A stretch of DNA of 64,000 nucleotides. Origin: Beroe forskalii. Taxonomy: Eukaryota; Ctenophora; Nuda; Beroida; Beroidae. The position numbers and the translations under genes are program-made. The notes below the pieces were generated by a model, which saw only the letters and a program-made list of their open reading frames with translations, made no database searches and had not been told where the DNA came from. The DNA is taken from NCBI GenBank assembly GCA_011033025.1, contig WFMF01000431.1:7232-71231 (forward strand). Reading direction: 5' to 3'. Positions 2,387-59,700 of the stretch are shown piece by piece; position 1 is the first letter of the stretch; every line of letters starts with the position of its first letter.

Positions 2387-3883
2387 ATGTTATTCCAAGC
2401 ATTTGTAGAAAAACTTGAAATGATCAGTTGGCCTTTAATAATAACATTTCCCAGGAACTACTACTCTGATTCTAGAAGTCTGTCTATCGGAACATGGATA
2501 AAGTCCGAACAACATCAGGACAGTGTCGTGCAGTACATCTTGGAGCTTGAGCAACTCTACCAGGTTGTTCTTGTCAATGGAACCCTGGGTTACAACCAAT
2601 GGAATAGGGAAAGTGGGAACGCAACAAGCTATGTCTGTTTTGGGGACTATGATGTCACAGATTGGACACTCCTTCTTATACAGATATCTTATCAGAGATA
2701 TTCATACGATCCTAAGAACATGTCACTGTCTGTTAGACCTCTTGATAGGACAACCCCGTTCCAGACCCTTGAGTGCAAGGATGCTGACTTCAAGACCGAA
2801 ATATCCCCACATAGAGTCGGAGAGATTTGGCTTGGTAGCGGCTATGTTGGTCAAATGACGCCTGTTTTTGTAGACTTTTTCGAATATTCACATGAATGTC
2901 AAGAAACCAAGGCGTGTTTAGTTACCAATGACATTACTAACTGCAGGAGAAGTTTAAACAGAGACAGAAGCACCTACCTCCAAAAGATACAATTCAATTT
3001 AGACCCTGCTTCGTCCATAAGAAGGGAAATAGACACAGAGATACGAGTACTGTTCAACAGCGCCTTTACATGCAAGGATGGGAAAGTGGACATATCACTG
3101 CATGCCTCCCAGTTCAACATCACAACTCCCACATACATAGGAAAACATAGATACTATAGTGATGATAGTGGATATCACAGCTATATGTACAGGAAGGTGT
3201 ACAGTTATCCAGCAAATGTGACTTTGGGGGCAGGAGAGTCTGCATGTAATCTCACATGGGACATCGGAGCAGGAAAATTATTCCTGGAGGACCCAATGCC
3301 TCTGACCTCGTGTGGATTCACTGCTACAAAGATGAACAAATCCTCCACTCTCTACTCCAACACCGTCTACATACACCAAGTAGAGAGCAGGACCCAGCTA
3401 ATGGATGTGGAGTGCTGGTACACGCCACCCACACAGCTAGTTGAGGAGATCTCGCTAGCAGCATACGCCGTCCAGCACCTCCAACTTTCTGCCTCTCACA
3501 CCATCACTCCCTGGAACATGTCCCTACAGCTGTACAATGATAGGAACTTCACTCAGAGATTGCAGAACCCTGTCATCTTGCTTAAGGAGCAGGAGGTATT
3601 CGTGGAGGGGAATGTGACATACAGTGACGTGATCAGTGTCGCTTTGGTAATGGATTCCTGCAAAACACGTGTTTCTCTCAACCATCACATGACTTTGGAG
3701 AAGGTCCTGATAGAAGGAGCACTCCCAGTGGCCCCAGATGTGAGGTTTCTCAACTCTACCTCAACCTCTAGCAAAAGATTTGTTTTCAAGTCTACAGTCT
3801 TCGAGGAGTTCCCCAATGCTATGGTCTACCTCAGCTGTGTGATGACGGCTAAAGAGATCTATGTAGAAGATACTATGGCCTGA
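2387..3883 (+). CDS. ZP-domain extracellular protein with LamG-like N-terminal region
   Basis: The open frame is 498 codons. The ATG at 2387 is probably not the true start: a 3' splice site, TTTCCCAG, ends at 2454, so the exon most likely begins at 2455 and upstream exons are missing. Residues about 25-170 look like a concanavalin/LamG-type jelly roll (patterns GTWIKSE, WTLLLIQ, GEIWLGSGYVG). Residues about 225-490 match the ZP domain. The ZP-N half has CKDGKVDISL, then SACNLTWD, LTSCGFTATK, SNTVYIHQVE and ECWYTPP. The ZP-C half starts at MSLQLYND, continues through VALVMDSC and ends at FVFKSTVFEEF and VYLSC. About ten NxS/T sites fit a secreted glycoprotein. ZP domains polymerise extracellular filaments. 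The frame stops soon after the ZP-C core; the usual final cysteines, cleavage site and transmembrane anchor are absent, so a further exon or a truncation is possible. Codon use and length make this a real gene. Confidence 0.78.
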   Translation: MLFQAFVEKLEMISWPLIITFPRNYYSDSRSLSIGTWIKSEQHQDSVVQYILELEQLYQVVLVNGTLGYNQWNRESGNATSYVCFGDYDVTDWTLLLIQISYQRYSYDPKNMSLSVRPLDRTTPFQTLECKDADFKTEISPHRVGEIWLGSGYVGQMTPVFVDFFEYSHECQETKACLVTNDITNCRRSLNRDRSTYLQKIQFNLDPASSIRREIDTEIRVLFNSAFTCKDGKVDISLHASQFNITTPTYIGKHRYYSDDSGYHSYMYRKVYSYPANVTLGAGESACNLTWDIGAGKLFLEDPMPLTSCGFTATKMNKSSTLYSNTVYIHQVESRTQLMDVECWYTPPTQLVEEISLAAYAVQHLQLSASHTITPWNMSLQLYNDRNFTQRLQNPVILLKEQEVFVEGNVTYSDVISVALVMDSCKTRVSLNHHMTLEKVLIEGALPVAPDVRFLNSTSTSSKRFVFKSTVFEEFPNAMVYLSCVMTAKEIYVEDTMA

Positions 3884-5041
3884 TTAAACATGTGTGATTG
3901 TAAATTATATGAAGATCACATAACATTGACCAAGACTTTATGATAAAGCAATTTAAGCAGGTAAAAATGTGATAAAAAATGGACAAATTTATCATCAATA
4001 TACTTTCAAATGAATTAATTCTTTAACCTTACTGTAAAACTAATTATTTTTCTTTAATGCATGACTTGTTAATGCTTTTAATACCTAGTTTATAGATACT
4101 AAGAGCTTCTTCATATGGGTCCTATCAGGCATTTAGTGTCTATGTATTGCATAGATAAAAATTTCTACAAGGTTCCATAAGGTAATCTATACCTAACAAA
4201 GAGACTAAGTTCTGGTTATCACTGGAACAATCAAAATATTTATCAACTCACCAGTGAGGCATGGAGACTGTTCCAATGTGGTGTGATGGAAAGGGACCAT
4301 ATCCATTATGGCTGTTGTGCATCTCTTCTTCTAAAGAGGTGTAGTGAGAGACATCTGCAACATCCTGCTGAAAATGAAGGTTATATCCTAATGAATACAG
4401 TCGTAGAACTGATCTAGTTGTTGTATCAGAATTAAATTGAGTTGGAGACAATAATTGACTACTCTTTCATAAGATGTTTGTATATCCACAACAATACATT
4501 CAATCAGTATAAGACCAAATTTTTTACAGACAAAAATCAATATCAAAATATGAGAATCAATATCCTTCTGGATCAGCCAGTCAATATAATAATGCAATTA
4601 ATTTTCAACTCAAGTTGGTATTAAGACTTCAGGAAGGACTCCTAGAACATTATCTCTCATTAGTGCTATTCAGATTAAATCTAAATTTTGTGAATAAGCA
4701 TGATAGTTGCAGACACCAACCACTAAGAATATTTAGCCACACATATGGTCGTACACACATGGGTAAGGCAGTATCCAAGTTGCCCCACACACTTAGTGGA
4801 ATTCCACTATCGAGTTAGTGGAATTGCACTATCGAGTTAGTGGAATTCCACTGCACTATCGACTTAGTAGACTGCCATTTACTGATTTTAAAACAACAAA
4901 AGAAACTTAATTTTCAAATAGTTATGTTCTGTGTGCACACAAAAATAAAATAAACATGGTTGTCCACTGTTGACAGAGCTAAACAATAATTTCTAATATC
5001 ACTGCATAATATCACCAAAAATTCATCACATACATATAAAT
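3884..5041. other. Intergenic, AT-rich
   Basis: No gene recognised. It contains a small tandem repeat at about 4794-4865: a 25-bp unit with TAGTGGAATTCCACTATCGA, three to four copies, itself partly palindromic (GTGGAATTCCAC). Confidence 0.55.
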
Positions 5042-5310
5042 TTCCCCTAACCAGGGGTGTCAATACATTGAGCTGTGCGCGCGAAACCAGGGCACTGGTT
5101 AGGGTTCCCCTTCCTAAGCCCGCATAGTTGCCCTAACCAGGGCCCTGGTTACGGTGAACCCGCATAGGTATGTGTACGCGCGCCGCGCGCAACCCACAGT
5201 CCACACAGGGCCAGGGATATACGTGTTTAGCAAGGGTTCCCCTAACCAGGGGCGTTGCTTACCGCGCCGCGCGCACTCGGTGCGCGTAACTAGGGTCCAG
5301 GCTAGGGCAA
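5042..5310. mobile_element. Two family-B elements side by side, split by an A element that itself carries a B
   Basis: The outer B copies are 5042-5104 (starts TTCCCCTAACCAGG) and 5237-5310 (ends GGCTAGGGCAA). A family-A element at 5111-5233 sits between them, flanked by the 9-bp duplication GGGTTCCCC (5102-5110 and 5234-5242). Inside that A element, a 31-bp B element (5128-5158) is flanked by the 9-bp duplication CCCGCATAG (5119-5127 and 5159-5167). Family B has inverted ends TTSCCCTAACCAG; family A has inverted ends TTSCTAARCMCG. Both end TT...AA. No coding capacity, so non-autonomous. Confidence 0.85.
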
Positions 5311-5378
5311 GTTAATCACTTGATCCAATATGTTGATTTTGAGTACCATGTCAAGGTACATAATCAAATGATTTAAAG

Positions 5379-5438
5379 TTCCCCTAACCAGGGGTGCCGC
5401 GCACTCCGTGCGCGAAACCAGGGCGCTGGTTAGGGCAA
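5379..5438. mobile_element. Family-B GC-rich mini-element, 60 bp
   Basis: Starts TTCCCCTAACCAGGGG and ends CTGGTTAGGGCAA, with a GC-rich hairpin core (GCGCACTCCGTGCGC). It is flanked by GATTTAAAG (5370-5378) and GATTTATAG (5439-5447), a 9-bp target duplication with one mismatch. Confidence 0.85.
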
Positions 5439-5526
5439 GATTTATAGTTATAAAGTTTATAGTTATAGTTATATAGTTTAGTGTTTTGAATCCAATGTCT
5501 TATCTATAGAGGTGTATAGGTATACT

Positions 5527-5680
5527 TTGCCAAAGACGTATATCCATATGTGGCTCGCGCGGCGCGCTTAACTTCCCCAGGGAAGTGCGCGGCGCGTACA
5601 CACACCTATGCGGGCGTAGGAAAGGTATACTTCCCCTAACCGCGCATAAAACTAGGGATCTGGTATTCTGGTTAGAGCAA
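5527..5680. mobile_element. Family-A and family-B elements sharing one target duplication
   Basis: The A element 5527-5622 (minus orientation, TTGCCAAAGACGTATATCC to GGGCGTAGGAA) is directly followed by a B element at 5632-5680. AGGTATACT occurs three times: 5518-5526, 5623-5631 and 5681-5689, that is, before A, between A and B, and after B. Each element is therefore bounded by perfect 9-bp repeats, and one site received both. Confidence 0.87.
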
Positions 5681-5740
5681 AGGTATACTGCAAACATAAC
5701 AAAATACTGCATATCGATTTTCTAATTCATGGATTGACAT

Positions 5741-5810
5741 TTGCTAAACACGTATAATATCCCTGTGTGGCTAGCGCGTACACACACCTATGCGGGCTTA
5801 GCTTTAGGAA
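5741..5810 (-). mobile_element. Family-A GC-rich mini-element, 70 bp
   Basis: In plus orientation it reads TTGCTAAACACGTATAATATC to GGGCTTAGCTTTAGGAA. It is flanked by perfect 9-bp duplications GATTGACAT (5732-5740 and 5811-5819). The internal GC hairpin is largely deleted compared with the 8816 copy. Confidence 0.9.
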
Positions 5811-5819
5811 GATTGACAT

Positions 5820-8726
5820 GAGAGGCAGAAGAAACTAAACTGTGAATCATCAGCGGTTACCCTACAGTTGCATTGGCAAACTTATTCACTCACGATTTAA
5901 ATATTTTATTGAATAAAACAATGTTTTCTTTCTATTGTTCAGTATGTTGTTTCTTTGTCGCATGCCATATTTTCGAGAAGTCTATCAGTACCTAATCTTT
6001 GGTAAATTCAAATTTGGAACCTTCGATTGTATTTTCCATTGCACTGATTAACTTTAAGGTGGTTACTTGGTAAATGTTAAAAAAATATGTTTATTTTTCT
6101 CTGAGAGTAAATGACTTTCGAAAATCAGGCGCATGCATAAAACAGTGGTCGATCGTATGGAATTGGTCAATTGATTAACTTCATTTGATTGACTGATGTG
6201 TTTCAAATAGAAAATCTTTAAGCTAGTGGGGAAACAACTAAATATTGCTCATCTAAACTCGATTCAAGTCATTGGGGACCAAAACACATATTAGTTCATA
6301 AGTTACGATCCACCCTTTTTAACCCTAAAGTTTGGGGCCCAAAAATTCATCAATTCAAATTTTTTTTTAAAAAAAGGCATTTTATTTAATGTCTGAATAC
6401 TCCAAGCTTTCTGCTTTTTGAAATATAATAGAACAATATTTATCTTTGGAAAAAGTCATCTTTGTAAACAAGCCCAAAAAATTTCCCAAAGTCTTTTTTT
6501 AGTCTTTTAAGGATCCAATGGGAAACCTTTAAGACTAGGGAGACCAAACAACTTAAAAACACCAAAAAAGATATGGTGTAATGGAAAACTGGACAGATTT
6601 TTGTGGGGGTTTAATGATTTGCCGGCCCCCCCCCAAACTAATGGGTTGTTGTGTCATTAGTTCATTTAGGGAATTTAAATTCATTTATCTTTTTCCGGTA
6701 GAAAAAGATTTGGGCAAAAGATCAAAAAAATCGTCAACTGCACAAGGAAGACATTTGAAGGCAACCGAACAATATTTGAAATTGTAATTTTTTTTTATCT
6801 TCATTATTATAGTTTTTCAAAAAACTATCTAGTTATTTATTTATATTTATCTATTATATCTGAAATATCAGAAAATTTTTAAACAAAAGGCAAATGCTGG
6901 GTTGGCCCATTTTCCAATTTTTTTTTGTTTTTTTTTAGCTCAAATTTAATGAAATTTTACTTTTTTTTTTGATTTTTATGGAACTGAAAAAGGTTTTTTA
7001 AATACTTAAAACAAATGGGGGTGTAGCATCTCCAAGTCTTATATTCCAATCCTTAAAAGCAAAGTTTTAATCACCCAAAATATTAAGAAAAATTTTTGGA
7101 TACTTTGGATGTGCGGGCGCACATTTTAAATTTGAGCTTGCCAAGTAAATATCAAGAAAGCGAAGGCGAAGTGGTGCATATTGGTGCTGTTGCTATGGGG
7201 ACAATTTTGTGCACGTGCAGATTGCAATCAGTTCTATGCGAGAGCTTTCTAATACGCTACTACTGTTTAATGCTGTGCTGTAGCTTTTTGAGATTTTTAC
7301 GCGTTCCTTCAAATTTAAGATCTCGAGGTGGGAATGGGTATAACTTGAATAACGGAGGATATTGCAGTTGGATTGCTTTCAGTGTGGCAGAGGTTGGTCG
7401 ATAATCAAAGTTTAGTTGGTGAAAACAGTAGTAACTGCAATTGTAAAATTAACCGTTAAGGTTACAAGGTGTGTACAATTCAATCGAGCCGAATGTAGGT
7501 GAAGCAGATTACGAGGACAGTTCCTGGCCTGTGAAAAAAACAAAATTATCCAATGTCAGTGTCAGTATGATGGAGTATGATAATCAGTTGTCAAAATTAA
7601 CATCATCTTACAATCAAAACGGAACGCTGGAACAAAACTCACATGGTTTAGCACGTCTAAGAATAACCAACGAATTCGATCTATTTTCCACTCTGCTCCT
7701 TCATAAAAATTTTTTTGAAAATTTTATTTTTGCGCATAACTTTTGACCAAATTGGAAGCTTTTGATGCGGTAAAAAGTATCCAATCAATTCGAATGGCAG
7801 TGTTTAAAAACTTTAACGAGGTGCTGCGTAGCAGCATGAGTGAATAGTTTGCAGGCCCAACGGGCCTGCTAGTAAACAATAATAAGTTATTCAATGTGAT
7901 GAAATTAATTTTAACTTCCACAATGATAAAATATCAAAATTGATAAAAACACTGAAAAAGCCAGTAAAAATAGTCAGTCAAATAAACATGGTCAATTAAT
8001 ACAAATTATGCAATGTGATTTATCAAGTATAAATATTGATACCTTTCTTCTTGGCTACAAAAGGATTACTTAAGAATTCATTGAACTTTAGTTTGTTTCT
8101 TAAATAGTTATCGCCTTCAATTTTCTCAAGCACAACTGATGATATATACCAGAAATTACAAGGAGAGTGCATTTCAGTATTGTTCTTATAAAATAAAATA
8201 AAATAAATGGTTTTGATAAGCACATCAACACTGTTTTCATAAAAACTATCTTCAAACTTCCACTTTTAACTGGATCTTCCAGCCACTATTTAGATATTGA
8301 ATATTAAAATTATATCTAGATAACGAAACCTGCAATAATAAAAAGGAGTGTTAACCAGAGCATTAATTATCAACTTAAAATATGCTAATTAAAAACTGGG
8401 AAACATGAATTTCGAATGCTTCAAATAATTTAAATAAATTAAAAAAGTACATTGAATATAATAACTTAGATTTAATTACATTCAAGTAATTAGTCAGCTG
8501 AGGCTGATTACAAATTAGCTTCCCATATATAAAGAGATAGATCATAAAAATGACGAAATGTAATATTGTCTTGACACTGGCAGTCAAACTTTCAGTGTAA
8601 ATCAGTTTTAATTTCAAGTCAATTTTTGCAATAAGGGATCATTCACATATTGAATGATCCCTATGGGTGTTTACCTCAATGTATGTGTGTAGAATGCCCA
8701 ATCACAGGGGTAAAAATATTTTACTC
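5820..8726. other. Intergenic, no gene recognised
   Basis: AT-rich sequence with homopolymer runs (6780-7010) and scattered short open frames. None has a recognisable domain or codon bias. A small hairpin (GTGCTGCGTAGCAGC) lies near 7820 and AGGCCCAACGGGCCT near 7855. Confidence 0.5.
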
Positions 8727-8993
8727 CTGTGTGTGTCCCAAAAGGATAAGTTATTTTTATTTTCGAAAAAGAAAAAATAACTTATCCTTCTGGTACACAT
8801 GTGAGTCCCAAAAGGTTCCTAAGCCCGCATAGGTGTGTGTACGCGCCGCGCGCTTCCCTACGGGAAGCGCGCCGCGCAACGCAGACAGGGATATACGTGT
8901 TTAGCAACCCAAAAGGATAAGTTATTTTTTATTTTTTAGAAGAAAAAATAACTTATCCCTCTGGTACACGAGTGTCCCAAAAAGATAAGTTAT
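8727..8993. repeat. Hairpin repeat family, AAGGATAAGTTATTTTT
   Basis: The block CCCAAAAGGATAAGTTATT followed by the inverted AAAATAACTTATCC and then CTGGTACAC occurs at 8727-8800 and 8908-8975, and starts again at 8976. The family-A element at 8816-8907 is inserted in the CCCAAAAGG word of this repeat, so the uninterrupted neighbour acts as an empty-site reference. Confidence 0.75.
8816..8907 (+). mobile_element. Family-A GC-rich mini-element, 92 bp (best copy)
   Basis: Starts TTCCTAAGCCCGCATAGG and ends GGATATACGTGTTTAGCAA. The core is a strong hairpin, CGCCGCGCGCTTCCC against GGGAAGCGCGCCGCG. Flanked by perfect 9-bp duplications CCCAAAAGG (8807-8815 and 8908-8916). Confidence 0.92.
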
Positions 8994-8995
8994 TT

Positions 8996-9387
8996 TTCCT
9001 GAGCCCGCATGGGTGTGTGTACGCGCCTTGCCCTAACCAGGACCCTGGTTACGCGCACGGAGTGCGCGGCGCGGCAAGCGCTAAAATCGTTTCGCGACGC
9101 CCCTGGTTAGGGGAAGTACGCGCCGCGCTTACCACATGTTACGTGTCCCTGTTTGTTCGCGCTTGCGTGCGCAAAATAAGGCTCCGTAACATGGAGTAAC
9201 GCCGCGCGCTTCCCTGAGGAATTGCGCCGCGCGACGATAACAGGGGTATACGTGTTTAGCTCGGCGGACGCGCGCGCTTCGCGCGCGCGCCCACCGAAGG
9301 CGAAGGGGTCAGACAACGTCTGACAATGTTTAGCAACACCCCTGGTTAGGGGGAGCGCGCGCGGAACAGGGCGCTGGTTAGGGCAAG
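8996..9387 (+). mobile_element. Composite: A element carrying nested B, C and D insertions
   Basis: The A element starts at 8996 (TTCCTGAGCCCGCATGGG) and its end, GTTTAGCAA, is reached only at 9336. Three insertions lie inside. B at 9028-9115 has perfect 9-bp duplications GTACGCGCC (9019-9027, 9116-9124). C at 9130-9199 has inverted ends around CATGTTACG and duplications CGCCGCGCT/CGCCGCGCG. D at 9261-9325 (TCGGCGGACGCGCG to GTCTGACA) has duplications GTGTTTAGC/ATGTTTAGC. A B-like remnant follows at 9337-9387. No target duplication was found for the outer A copy. Confidence 0.82.
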
Positions 9388-29636: not shown

Positions 29637-29730
29637 TTGCTAAACACGTATATCCCTGTCTGCGTTGCGCGGCGCGCTTCCTCAGGGTAGCGCGGCGGCG
29701 CGCGTACGCACACCTATGCGGGCTTAGGAA
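29637..29730 (-). mobile_element. Family-A GC-rich mini-element, 94 bp
   Basis: In plus orientation it reads TTGCTAAACACGTATATCCC to TATGCGGGCTTAGGAA. Flanked by perfect 9-bp duplications GCAAACTGC (29628-29636 and 29731-29739). Confidence 0.92.
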
Positions 29731-29951: not shown

Positions 29952-30054
29952 TTCCTAAGCCCGCATAGGTGTGTGTACGCGCCGCGCGCTTCCCTACGGG
30001 ACACGCTGGAGAAGCGCGCCGCGCGAGCCACACAGGGATATACGTGTTTAGCAA
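29952..30054 (+). mobile_element. Family-A GC-rich mini-element, 103 bp
   Basis: TTCCTAAGCCCGCATAGG to GATATACGTGTTTAGCAA, flanked by perfect 9-bp duplications GTTTTTTGT (29943-29951 and 30055-30063). Compared with the 8816 copy, the hairpin loop has about 10 extra bases (ACACGCTGGA). Confidence 0.92.
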
Positions 30055-39630: not shown

Positions 39631-40796
39631 TCAAATCTTTGTTTTTCCAAATGTGGCGTATTCGTTATTCCTGAAAAGTAAAATTTTTATTCAGAATAGA
39701 AATATAGTCATGAATCATGATTTGCATGAATGTAAAATGAGGCACCACCGAGATTCGAACTCGGGATCTCCTGTTTACTAGACAGGCGCTTTAACCAACT
39801 AAGCCATGGCGCCGATGGGAACAGTAATGAAATTGTGACTAAATTCTCATTATCAACATTGAAATTTGCAGCACTGGAAATGTTCTTCTCGTTTCGTTCG
39901 AGAAATGAGGAACAATCTGGTGGCTCAAAAATCGCAGTTTAATGGTAGAATTTTTGCAAAAGTGGGAACAATTGTTTATTAACAAGTGTCTAGATTGCAT
40001 GAAATGGTTTTGTCTCAAAATTCTGACCTAGCAAAAAATTTCATTACTGTTGGCATGTAAGTGAATGTTAAAACATCCAAAAGTAAGGCACCACCGAGAT
40101 TCGAACTCGGGATCTCCTGTTTACTAGACAGGCGCTTTAACCAACTAAGCCATGGCGCCGATATGTGAAGAAAAATTCGATAGATTATGAATCAAACTTA
40201 CAAGGTCGGCTCGTGTAGTGAAGGCATCGGGCTTCTCCCCCGTACTGTACACATAGGGAGCAACTCTGAAATTGAAGATATCAGTACCACCTCATTTTTT
40301 TCTGCAATTTGGGGAGGTGGGGATTGCCAGGTTAAATCGAATCAATTGAGGAATTAGACTTATCACGATTCAGGAATGCGGCGGTATTATCATTTTTGCT
40401 AAATTCATCAATCGGTGATTAAACTTCATTAATTTTTTCGTATACTGTTTGATTGAAAATCTGTATCAACTTACACCGCACTGGTTGAAGACTTTCCTTC
40501 TCGATCTGATTATTACTGCATCTTCTGGTAGCGTTTCCATCAACTCCTTGATAGACAACCCTTCGTCGTTATCTGACTCTGCTTCGAGATCTATGCTCAT
40601 CGCTTGTATCACTGCTGTGGGAATTTTCAAGATCAGCATTGGGGAGTTGGGAATTAATAGATTGGGATCTTCACCTCATTTGATACTTTGATACAACTGA
40701 ACAATAATCAATATCATGATAAGAAAACTCTTCCATTCACATTAGCTGCTTACCTATTAGACCGAGGAGAATGCTAAGCTTGGTTATCAGAGACAT
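39631..40796 (-). CDS. Small secreted peptide precursor, 94 residues, 4 exons
   Basis: Exons (minus): 40796-40754, 40614-40475, 40263-40202, 39670-39631. All junctions are GT-AG and give one continuous frame. Exon 1 and the start of exon 2 encode a clear signal peptide, MSLITKLSILLGLIAVIQA. An acidic spacer of about 33 residues follows (SIDLEAESDNDEG through LPEDAVI), then a furin-type site RSRR. The rest reads KVFNQCGLLPMCTVRGR, SPMPSLHEPTL and NNEYATFGKTKI, then TGA. The two cysteines are five residues apart (C-x5-C) and an F-G-K near the end could yield an F-amide. This layout recalls calcitonin/CGRP-type peptides, but the amidation site lacks a dibasic pair and the likeness is inference. 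Exon 3 has two possible AG sites; 40263 is the one that keeps the frame open. I do not recognise the gene. Confidence 0.62.
39740..39813 (-). tRNA. tRNA-Thr (AGT)
   Basis: 74-nt tRNA on the minus strand starting GGCGCCATGGCTTAGTTGG. Anticodon stem CCTGT/ACAGG encloses loop CTAGTAA (anticodon AGT). The T arm is CCGAGTTCGAATCTCGG. The acceptor stem GGCGCCA pairs with TGGTGCC. TTTT follows within about seven bases, as for Pol III. Identical to the copy at 40086. Confidence 0.97.
40086..40159 (-). tRNA. tRNA-Thr (AGT), second copy
   Basis: Identical 74-nt gene with the same anticodon AGT, followed by a TTTT run. Both copies lie in the last intron of the peptide-precursor gene, same strand, with 272 bp between them. 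The A and B boxes are intact. Confidence 0.97.
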
Positions 40797-56700: not shown

Positions 56701-59700
56701 TATTTGTTAAATTCAGTAACTCGCAAGTAAATGGCGGTCGTGTGGAAATTTCAGAACGCATTCTCGACACTAACTCTTAAACTCTACACTCAGCTTTCCA
56801 AGGCAAATTACCCCTATGACTATATTTATGCTCAGCATTCCAACCCTCTGCAGGTACCTAACACTAACCTGGCTCTAATTCTAACCCTCTGCAGGTACGT
56901 GGCAATAAAGTACCCTCTGAGCTACGCCAGTATCATCACCATGCCCCGGATTGTGGGGTTAATATCCCTGACTTGGGTCTTCCAACTCCTGAAATGTGTG
57001 GTTGAGGTGCTCCTGGACCTCTTCACCGAAACTCTCAGGTGGGTCGATAGCGTCACTTAAACTCTTGGGTGGGTTGATAACTTCACTTAAACTCTAAAGT
57101 GGGTTGATATTTTCACTGAAACTCTTAGATGGGTTGATATCTTCACTGAAACTCTCAGGTGGGTTGATATTATCACTGAAACTCTCAGGTGGGTCGATAT
57201 CTTCACTGAAACTCTTAGGTGGGTTGATATCTTCACTGAAACTCTCATGTGATTTGATATCTTCATTGAGACTGTTTTAAGCTGGGTTGATATCTTCTTT
57301 TTTAGCTTTCTGTACTACGCAGTATGTGAGCAATTGTAGAAAACTTGTACGAAAGTATCATGCTTGGAAGTGGTGGAACCTTAGGTCATCGATCCAAAAT
57401 AACTTCGCTGAACTTCACATTCTCTATTGCAGGATTGTGCACTAAGATTTAATAATTCCAATATCCACGGTCATGTTTAAATTCTGCATATGCGGATATT
57501 CATTCCCTAACAACTCTCTCTAGTCTCTCTGGTTGTGTGGTTATATAGTCCATAAACTTCATAGGCACGAGCCTATCGGGTCCATTTTGGGGTAATTCCT
57601 GAGGGATTTGAGCGAGGGTTTTAAAAACCAATATTGACCCGATCAGGCAAGTTTCTATGATTTAAATAGAAACCGATTTAAACGTCAGCGGGGGTTCCTT
57701 AACGTCTTTCAACCTCCAGCATTGGGTTCAACAGCACCCTCAACTCCTCAAGTGAATGCTACACTCAGATTCATAATATCCACAGTCATTTTCAACTTCA
57801 TATGAGTGGTCAAGTCTTCTATGATTATAACTCCTTCAAATGTATGGTTTCTAACTGGAGTTTCTAACTGTGATTTCTAACTGTGGTTTCTAACTGTGAT
57901 TTCTAACTGTGGTTTCTAACTGTGGCTTCTAACTGTGGTTTCCAACTGTGATTTCCAACTGTGATTTCTTATTCTGATTTCTAACTCCCTCCAACTCCCG
58001 CAGCGTTGATTTCGACAGCACGCTAAAGAGGTGTGAGTTCAGCAGCAAGTTGTACGTTTACCTCATCCAGGCGTGCTACTACTTCCTGCCTTTCCTCCTC
58101 ATGTGCGGGCTGTACGTGGGAATATTCAACGAGGTGTGGAGGAGTCTACAGAGCAATAGGAGCAGAATCGAACAACCAGGTAAGAGAAGTGTCCAGAGCA
58201 ATAGGAGCAGAATCGAACAACCAGGTAATTGGCCATTTTCACATATTATCTGTCGCATTAATTCGGTAGCCGAACTAATCAAGCTTTTCAAAAGATCAGG
58301 GATGAACCCTATGACTTTTAAACTTGTTTTCTGTATCCTCGCTCTAGCTGCATCCACCAATTATGACTGATCTGGTTATGTAAAATCTAGATTTGAGAAA
58401 TAATCCCATTTCAATCCTTTAATCACACCATCTCTCCCCAGTCATAACCCTGTCAACCAAAGACACCTCCCTCCGCAAGAAGATTAAGATCATCACGACG
58501 CTCTCCCTCGTGACAGTCGGTTTTTTCATCGCGTGGTTCCCCTACTTCTACAGTCTCACCGAGCTCGTTCTCTTCGGCATCTCCCGACCTGGCTTCAAGT
58601 GGACCATCGTCATGTTCTACTTCAACTTACTGTGGGATTCCGTGGTGTACGCTATCAGGATCCCGTCTATTTATAAACTCCTGCTAAGATCCCGGGTGTT
58701 TCGGTGGTGCTTTGGGAGGGTGATACGGGCTAAGTTGTATGTTACGAAGCGGTGATACGGGCTAAGTTGTATGTTACGAAGCGGCGATATGGACTTCCAG
58801 TGAATTTGATGGGAAGCTAAGTTGTATGTTACGAAGCGGTGATATGGACTTCCACTGAGTTTGGTAGGAAGGTTAAGTTGTATGTTACGAAGCGGTAATA
58901 TGGACTTCCAGTGAGTTGGATAGGAAGGTTGAAACAATGAAACGTGGAATGATACGACATAGTTTGATATCAGAAGCTTTCTAAAATCATGTGACTATCA
59001 TCCTCAACAGTTCAACAGTACCCCCTGTTCGGTTTCAATGAAACTTATACCGAGAGTAACACGTCTAGTATCCTCTATAGAGTTACTCTGAGTGTAACTT
59101 TAGGGATCCTCAGTTAATCTACATCGAGTGTAAGTATCCCCAGTTCTGTTACACTGAGTGTAACTTCAAGTATGCCCTGTTCCGTTACACCGAGCTTAAC
59201 GTAAAGTATCCTTTGTTAAGTTACATCGAGTGTAACGTCAACTTTCCCAATGCTCAGTTATACTGCGTGTAACGGCCAGTATCCCCGTTTGGTTACAGTG
59301 TAACCTAAACCGAATGTAACGTCAAATGACTCTATTTCGGTTATACTTCAGTTTGCGTCAATAGATGCTCAAAATCACCATTTCAATGAATATACGGGAC
59401 GTTTGATATTTTAATTTCGCTGTGTCAACCAGACCCTTTTGATGATTTGAGACGTCAGTCAGACCCTTTTTGATTTTTATTTGAATATTAATGTTGATTT
59501 GTGTGGCCCTTGATTCTTTAACTGCTGCAAGAGACATGAAAGCCAATCACGTGACCTATAAGCGTTAGTTAAAAAGTTAATCTTGGTTAACGTCCATTTC
59601 AGATCTTACATCATTCTTAGGTCTGCTGTCAGATTATTTCTTTCATTGCTGCATTTTGAGCTGACATATGAACATTGAACAAGTCTTACCGCGGTATATT

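Follow-up and report, generated by a model that had tools for sequence, protein, structure and literature searches.

What are the short GC-rich elements that lie at positions 5042..9387 of a 64,000-nucleotide stretch of the ctenophore Beroe forskalii (contig WFMF01000431.1 of assembly GCA_011033025.1, forward-strand positions 7,232 to 71,231; hereafter the window), what moves them, and why are some of them so short? The elements belong to two families, A and B, with smaller relatives. We found that these are all families of miniature inverted-repeat transposable elements (MITEs), that is, miniature non-autonomous DNA transposons. As a whole, it is probable that these MITEs have been moved in trans by a transposase of the Mutator-like element (MULE) type, with a 9-bp stagger at the target, and that copies have later shrunk by deletion between microhomologies.

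A family A copy is composed of TTCCTAAGCCCGCATAGGTGTGTGTACGCG, a GC-rich palindrome and ACAGGGATATACGTGTTTAGCAA, and a family B copy of TTCCCCTAACCAGGGG, a GC-rich palindrome and AACCAGGG(TCC/CCC/CGC)TGGTTAGGGCAA. In short form, the ends are TTCCTAAGCCCGC…GTGTTTAGCAA in A and TTCCCCTAACCAG…GGTTAGGGCAA in B, and the two families have in common the terminal bases TTC on one side and TTG on the other. The terminal inverted repeats match at about 9 of 13 bases in A and at 10-12 of 13 in B. Copies with no obvious insert measure 43-103 bp (A) and 50-98 bp (B) among 53 end pairs, which were collected from the window and from fetched loci (given as L numbers) and have ends 26-260 bp apart. Thus, the copies are short and non-coding and have terminal inverted repeats, which is the structure of MITEs. 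The 216-Mb assembly containing the window has 2,462 exact A left ends (18-base pattern) and 1,377 exact B ends (16-base pattern), and reversed-pattern controls for both ends gave 0 matches genome-wide. Further small families with a similar signature are family C (TTGTC...GACAA) and at least two more in L172 and L173. A 9-bp repeat with at most one mismatch was found in 4 of 14 candidate rows of family C, which include several alternative pairings, and all four share the outer T or A.

The elements had been described as hairpins of GC-rich sequence in AT-rich DNA. This holds for six of nine folded copies, which fold better than their shuffles (z -2.8 to -4.0) and include a 30-bp B and, at 60-103 bp, two copies of A and three of B. 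It does not hold for a 70-bp B variant (z -1.2), the 31-bp B (z -1.0) and a 43-bp A (z 0.1), whose folding is no better than that of shuffles.

Copies of both families are flanked by direct repeats of 9 bp. Among the 53 end pairs, which were reduced from 64 candidates with the repeat-bearing one preferred among alternative partners, an exact 9-bp repeat lies flush against the ends in 30 and one with at most one mismatch in 36. Exact flush repeats of 3, 4, 5, 6, 7, 8, 10, 11, 12 and 13 bp occur at 1, 1, 0, 0, 0, 1, 0, 0, 0 and 0 of the same pairs. The matches with at most one mismatch number 36 in register, and 3 and 0 when one flank is shifted by one base in either direction. Since 9 bp is found at 30 of 53 pairs and any other length at one or none, a chance origin of the 9-bp repeats is excluded. 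One left end enters the 53 rows twice (L004 2815 = L005 2576), and the end filter missed three window copies (5042-5104, 5128-5158 and 5741-5810). The repeat sometimes takes in the outermost T or A of the element, as at 5632 in the window and in L083, L085 and L095. A fixed length is what is expected of the target duplication of MITEs, and 9 bp also falls within the 8-11 bp of MULE duplications given in the accessible text of PMC6446971.

Because short non-coding copies with inverted repeats, a fixed 9-bp duplication and a high copy number are found together, A and B are assigned to MITEs; the ends, the duplications and the copy number agree with the MITE-like nature suggested by the first-pass annotation, which was made from the sequence of the window. 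All nine repeats that it quoted do flank A or B elements of the window, although the copies with GCAAACTGC and GTTTTTTGT are located outside 5042..9387, where it had placed them. Over the window and the fetched loci together, a flush 9-bp repeat was seen at 36 of the 53 pairs (at most one mismatch) and was lacking at 17. The copies in the window and their repeats are as follows.

5042..5104, plus strand: family B copy that breaks off on the right at GGTTAGGG; no 9-bp repeat seen that belongs to it.
5111..5233, plus strand: family A copy with repeat GGGTTCCCC at 5102-5110 and 5234-5242; holds a nested 31-bp B.
5128..5158, plus strand: 31-bp family B copy inside the A at 5111, repeat CCCGCATAG; empty site in other A copies of the window.
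5237..5310, plus strand: family B copy adjoining the A at 5111; flanks unmatched.
5379..5438, plus strand: family B copy, repeat GATTTAAAG / GATTTATAG with one mismatch.
5527..5622, minus strand: family A copy, repeat AGGTATACT.
5632..5680, plus strand: family B copy, repeat AGGTATACT, in which the outer T is shared; on the left, it uses the repeat that bounds the A at 5527 on the right.
5741..5810, minus strand: family A copy, repeat GATTGACAT.
8730..8758, plus strand: paralogous copy of the target of the A at 8816, empty and 96.6% identical over 29 bp across the joint.
8816..8907, plus strand: family A copy, repeat CCCAAAAGG.
8996..9336, plus strand: composite of family A, interrupted by a B (9028-9115), by a C-like element and by other sequence; no outer repeat seen.
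9028..9115, minus strand: family B copy nested in A, repeat GTACGCGCC.
9256..9326, minus strand: C-like element in the A right end, with the GACAA end at 9307-9326 and the other end uncertain; TGTTTAGC is common to its flanks.
9337..9386, minus strand: family B remnant.
29637..29730, minus strand: family A copy, repeat GCAAACTGC; outside 5042..9387.
29952..30054, plus strand: family A copy, repeat GTTTTTTGT; outside 5042..9387.

At 5518-5689, there are three copies of AGGTATACT, around the A and then the B; the B insertion hit the exact 9-mer that the A had duplicated.

Empty sites were also found. The A at 8816-8907 interrupts a repeated host sequence, and an unoccupied copy of this sequence is present at 8730-8758 of the same window. 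The B at 5128-5158 splits an A at CCCGCATAG, and the site is intact in other A copies of the window. In L073, removal of the inner copy together with one repeat restores the outer repeats GTACTATGT. A repeated palindrome around GTCCCAAAAGGATAAGTTATTTTT and AAAAAATAACTTATCC at 8735-8990 is a probable transposon family, and it carries an A insertion.

The copies insert in each other. By matching of 11-mers, which misses diverged hosts, the target lies inside a copy of A, B or C at eight of the 41 short-copy sites with a repeat (see below). The background is 71 of 20,000 random 27-mers (0.4%) from transposase loci and 439 of 20,000 (2.2%) from the window, which is itself a region picked for A, B and C elements. 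Because 8 of 41 is far above both, the nesting is strong, in agreement with the self-nesting first noticed in the window. A within A was found in L171, L172 and L173, with the outer repeats read by script and the inner ones by eye. Nesting to three levels is clear in L172, where another element lies inside an A inside an A (by eye), but the window, in which this had been claimed, shows it only in part, 8996-9387 being a broken composite. Small GC-rich families, one starting with TTGTAGGATGTTACCC and one with TCGTAGGATGTTACCC, were seen by eye in A copies of L172 and L173 with repeats of about 9 bp. Over the 53 repeats, read in element orientation, the target has a G+C content of 56% versus 38% for the window. 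A preference for G+C may be a sufficient cause of the nesting, perhaps one of several.

These elements may have spread in the following way: A DDE transposase acting in trans, most likely that of a MULE, would recognise the short terminal repeats, of which one begins with TTC and the other with TTG. By cut-and-paste chemistry, the ends would be joined to the target with a 9-bp stagger, and fill-in by the host would yield the 9-bp duplication. Targets richer in G+C than their surroundings would cause copies to land in each other. The palindromic, repeat-rich interiors would then lose their middles by microhomology-mediated deletion, resulting in copies down to 22 bp, many of them between intact duplications.

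Which transposase acts on A and B was approached through the transposases encoded in the genome, where there are 46 matches to PF10551 for MULE and 35 matches for Merlin. Outer repeats were readable at 13 MULE loci, being 9 bp in seven (L009, L010, L016, L017, L025, L032 and L036) and 8 bp in six, and at ten Merlin loci, all of which have 8 bp and GG ends and none 9 bp. In these counts, the outermost GG/GA boundary of each locus was taken by eye and inner palindromic repeats were excluded; L012 (one mismatch, weak ends) and Merlin L047, L048, L058 and L064 (only palindromic inner matches) were left out, and L038, with a 9-bp repeat and a CGTT/GATT end pair, stands outside the count. The seven 9-bp MULE loci have repeat-rich ends, with termini that differ between sides. 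MULE reading frames with what we take to be a FLYWCH-like part occur in the genome. Since 9-bp repeats are found at seven MULE loci and at no Merlin locus (8 bp at ten), the transposase is most likely of the MULE type, as far as duplication length can tell.

Merlin duplications are known to be 8-9 bp long. It is conceivable, though less likely, that a Merlin or other non-MULE transposase drives A and B: Merlin transposases are present, the transposase groups looked at in detail are two, and the local MULEs are split between 8 and 9 bp. However, A and B have 9 bp and TT ends, while all ten readable Merlin loci have 8 bp and GG ends. Thus, of the two origins first considered, Mutator-like fits and Merlin fits worse.

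Thirty of the 46 MULE loci and 30 of the 35 Merlin loci were scanned for A and B ends within 1.5 kb of the match, and for five MULE loci a further 2 kb was added to the left and to the right. Near transposases, L053 has one isolated B-like word and L012 one isolated A-like word, and neither forms a pair around the transposase; the extended MULE loci L012 and L018 gave single A-like words, which are unpaired. In L063, the Merlin match has complete, ordinary copies of both A and B beside it. The MULE locus L031 carries the inverted repeat CGACAACTGCTCCCC in place of A or B ends, and in L169 a lone A end stands beside an apparent coding sequence (by eye). A search of the genome for KDZ transposase gave no match, but its control was silent too, so the search is uninformative. 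Among the divergent ends, five of the seven fetched copies of the class TTCCCCTAACCAGCA share their upstream flank and belong to another repeat. In L109, L110, L111, L113 and L115, a B-like word that is there by chance lies within a dispersed repeat at least about 200 bp long, whose sequence is conserved to the left and to the right of the word.

There are 129 B copies (down to 23 bp) and 60 A copies (down to 22 bp) whose core does not exceed 30 bases. Among 56 short sites, picked and not random (20 of the shortest B, 20 short A and 16 for recurring junctions; B chosen from 100 listed of the 129, A from the 60), the 9-bp repeat is exact at 33 and has at most one mismatch at 41, a shared outer T or A being allowed. 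The 56 exclude L151, whose site is that of L150, but include both members of L084/L097 and of L139/L141, each pair apparently one insertion that was duplicated; L092 and L093 have a right flank in common. Parents could be assigned to 69 of the 100 listed short B copies, and the junctions of these 69 have a microhomology of at least 2 bp in 62 and of at least 3 bp in 46, compared with 6.1% and 2.6% expected among all possible deletion products. The 30-mer B is a deletion product between two copies of TAACCAGGG. A single 42-bp junction recurs at seven sites, each with a different target repeat; the right-end subtypes are TCC at three of them, CCC at one and CGC at three. Since the B junctions are located at microhomologies (62 of 69 versus 6%), copies of 22-48 bp are better explained by recurrent microhomology deletion of longer elements than as tiny transposons.

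It is improbable that copies of 22-48 bp are mobile in their own right, with two ends of 11-15 bp each on which the transposase can act, and that each copy arrived at its present size. The 41 of 56 short copies with a 9-bp repeat of their own, a share no smaller than that of longer copies (36 of 53), speak for such mobility, as do identical 30-mers and 42-mers at separate sites, most with their own repeat; but the microhomology at the mapped B junctions speaks against it, as do the three right-end subtypes behind one 42-bp junction, which recurrent deletion predicts, and the matching 9-bp repeat at only one of the three 22-bp copies. If they were mobile, these forms would be too short for two ordinary end complexes to fit on one molecule, they could do without the GC-rich middle, and we know of no smaller eukaryotic transposon. 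On the preferred reading of recurrent deletion, the first-pass annotation was right that very small copies exist, now of 22-48 bp and with the duplication kept at 41 of 56 sites, but they would be deletion products and not the minimum of a mobile MITE.

Several observations weigh against MULE-driven MITEs with later shrinkage. Six MULE loci (L013, L014, L021, L022, L024 and L034) show 8-bp repeats, so 9 bp is no rule for MULEs in this genome, and MULE ends here are mostly GGT/GAT, unlike the TTC/TTG of A and B. No A or B end pair was found around any of the 30 MULE and 30 Merlin loci, and the proposal that one transposase moves all families gained no support there. No autonomous element bounded by A or B ends, which the first-pass annotation had advised looking for, was found among the loci inspected, in a search that is far from exhaustive. 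Divergent ends were inspected for A on the left (eight of the ten that diverge most) and on the right (5 of 133) and for B on the left (15 of 71), and none led to a transposase-coding element. As for shrinkage, 31 of the 100 listed short B copies failed to map to the assumed parents and were dropped, and the 6% expectation assumes equiprobable products and fewer parents than the mapping, while copies may share descent. Finally, 17 of the 53 pairs have no flush 9-bp repeat at one mismatch or less; among them, the window B at 5632 gains a repeat with the shared T and L073 1787 gains one once its nested B is removed, and others, such as the window B at 5237-5310, are repeat-less. These 17 pairs and the strong hairpins of most folded copies are what could be said for A and B being no transposons at all but hairpin-prone sequence spread by repair or template switching, with repeats from filler synthesis, an idea that is hardly tenable given a repeat length of almost exclusively 9 bp, the constant TTC/TTG ends, the dispersal of copies by the thousand and the empty sites.

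The window and the genome have other contents. A 498-amino acid reading frame with a zona pellucida ZP-C domain is located at 2387-3883, and two rhodopsin-like G protein-coupled receptor family matches at 56731-58370, below the curated cut-off; kinase-like stretches are also under curated cut-offs. Two tRNA-Thr (AGT) genes lie about 270 bp apart on the minus strand at 39739-40159. At 4790-4870, tandem TTAGTGGAATTCCACTATCGA units resemble by eye the long terminal repeats that the Merlin copy of L051 carries and are a probable Merlin-derived non-autonomous piece. The mitochondrial COX1, on a contig of 13,339 bases, is divergent and reads TGA as tryptophan, and five of its seven AGA/AGG codons align with arginines of mammalian COX1 (alignment read by eye). 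TGA for tryptophan with AGA/AGG for arginine is the mitochondrial code of cnidarians, sponges, placozoans and ctenophores. An ascidian host was rejected on account of the arginine positions, and the divergence of COX1, the size of its contig and the 216-Mb assembly suggest a ctenophore.

No paper title on 9-bp MITEs, small GC-rich hairpin MITEs, ctenophore miniature inverted repeats or MITE microhomology deletion, or with the element words, matched families A and B in a literature search of titles. A and B are several MITE families absent from the literature searched, ordinary in kind and rich in detail. Merlin elements are present in the same genome and also have short duplications, but these are of 8 bp with GG ends at the ten readable loci. 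A and B resemble MULE-driven MITEs in being short and non-coding and in having terminal inverted repeats, 9-bp duplications and a high copy number; they differ in their TTC/TTG ends, in the lack of a coding partner among the loci inspected, in a strongly GC-rich central palindrome and in very short derivatives. In the Tm1 Mutator/Foldback family of root-knot nematodes, the accessible text of PMC3169594 gives duplications of 8-10 bp, mostly 9, in 45 of 53 complete copies, MITE-like members and a Phantom-type transposase (FLYWCH plus MULE). Tm1 as described there and A/B are alike in the mostly 9-bp duplications, the MITE-like members and the FLYWCH-like MULE frames of both genomes, whereas the composite terminal repeats of Tm1 are complex and the ends of A and B are short and simple, with no coding member seen. 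Chromatin-loop anchors offer a looser comparison, which is by description and not by sequence: according to the accessible text of PMC12221973 (2025), the anchors are linked to Mutator terminal repeats in placozoans and to a GC-rich CTEP motif with two CpGs in Mnemiopsis, where DNA transposons are found in >90% of promoter regions in distal contacts and the genome is roughly 200 Mb. In those systems as in A and B, GC-rich CpG-bearing sequence occurs with DNA transposons in non-bilaterian genomes. To these known systems, A and B add several MITE families from a non-bilaterian animal with an unusually clean insertion record, comprising thousands of copies, exact 9-bp duplications, nested self-made empty sites and readable deletion junctions, in which the lower size limit of transposable elements and the role of palindromes and microhomology in MITE shrinkage become directly testable.

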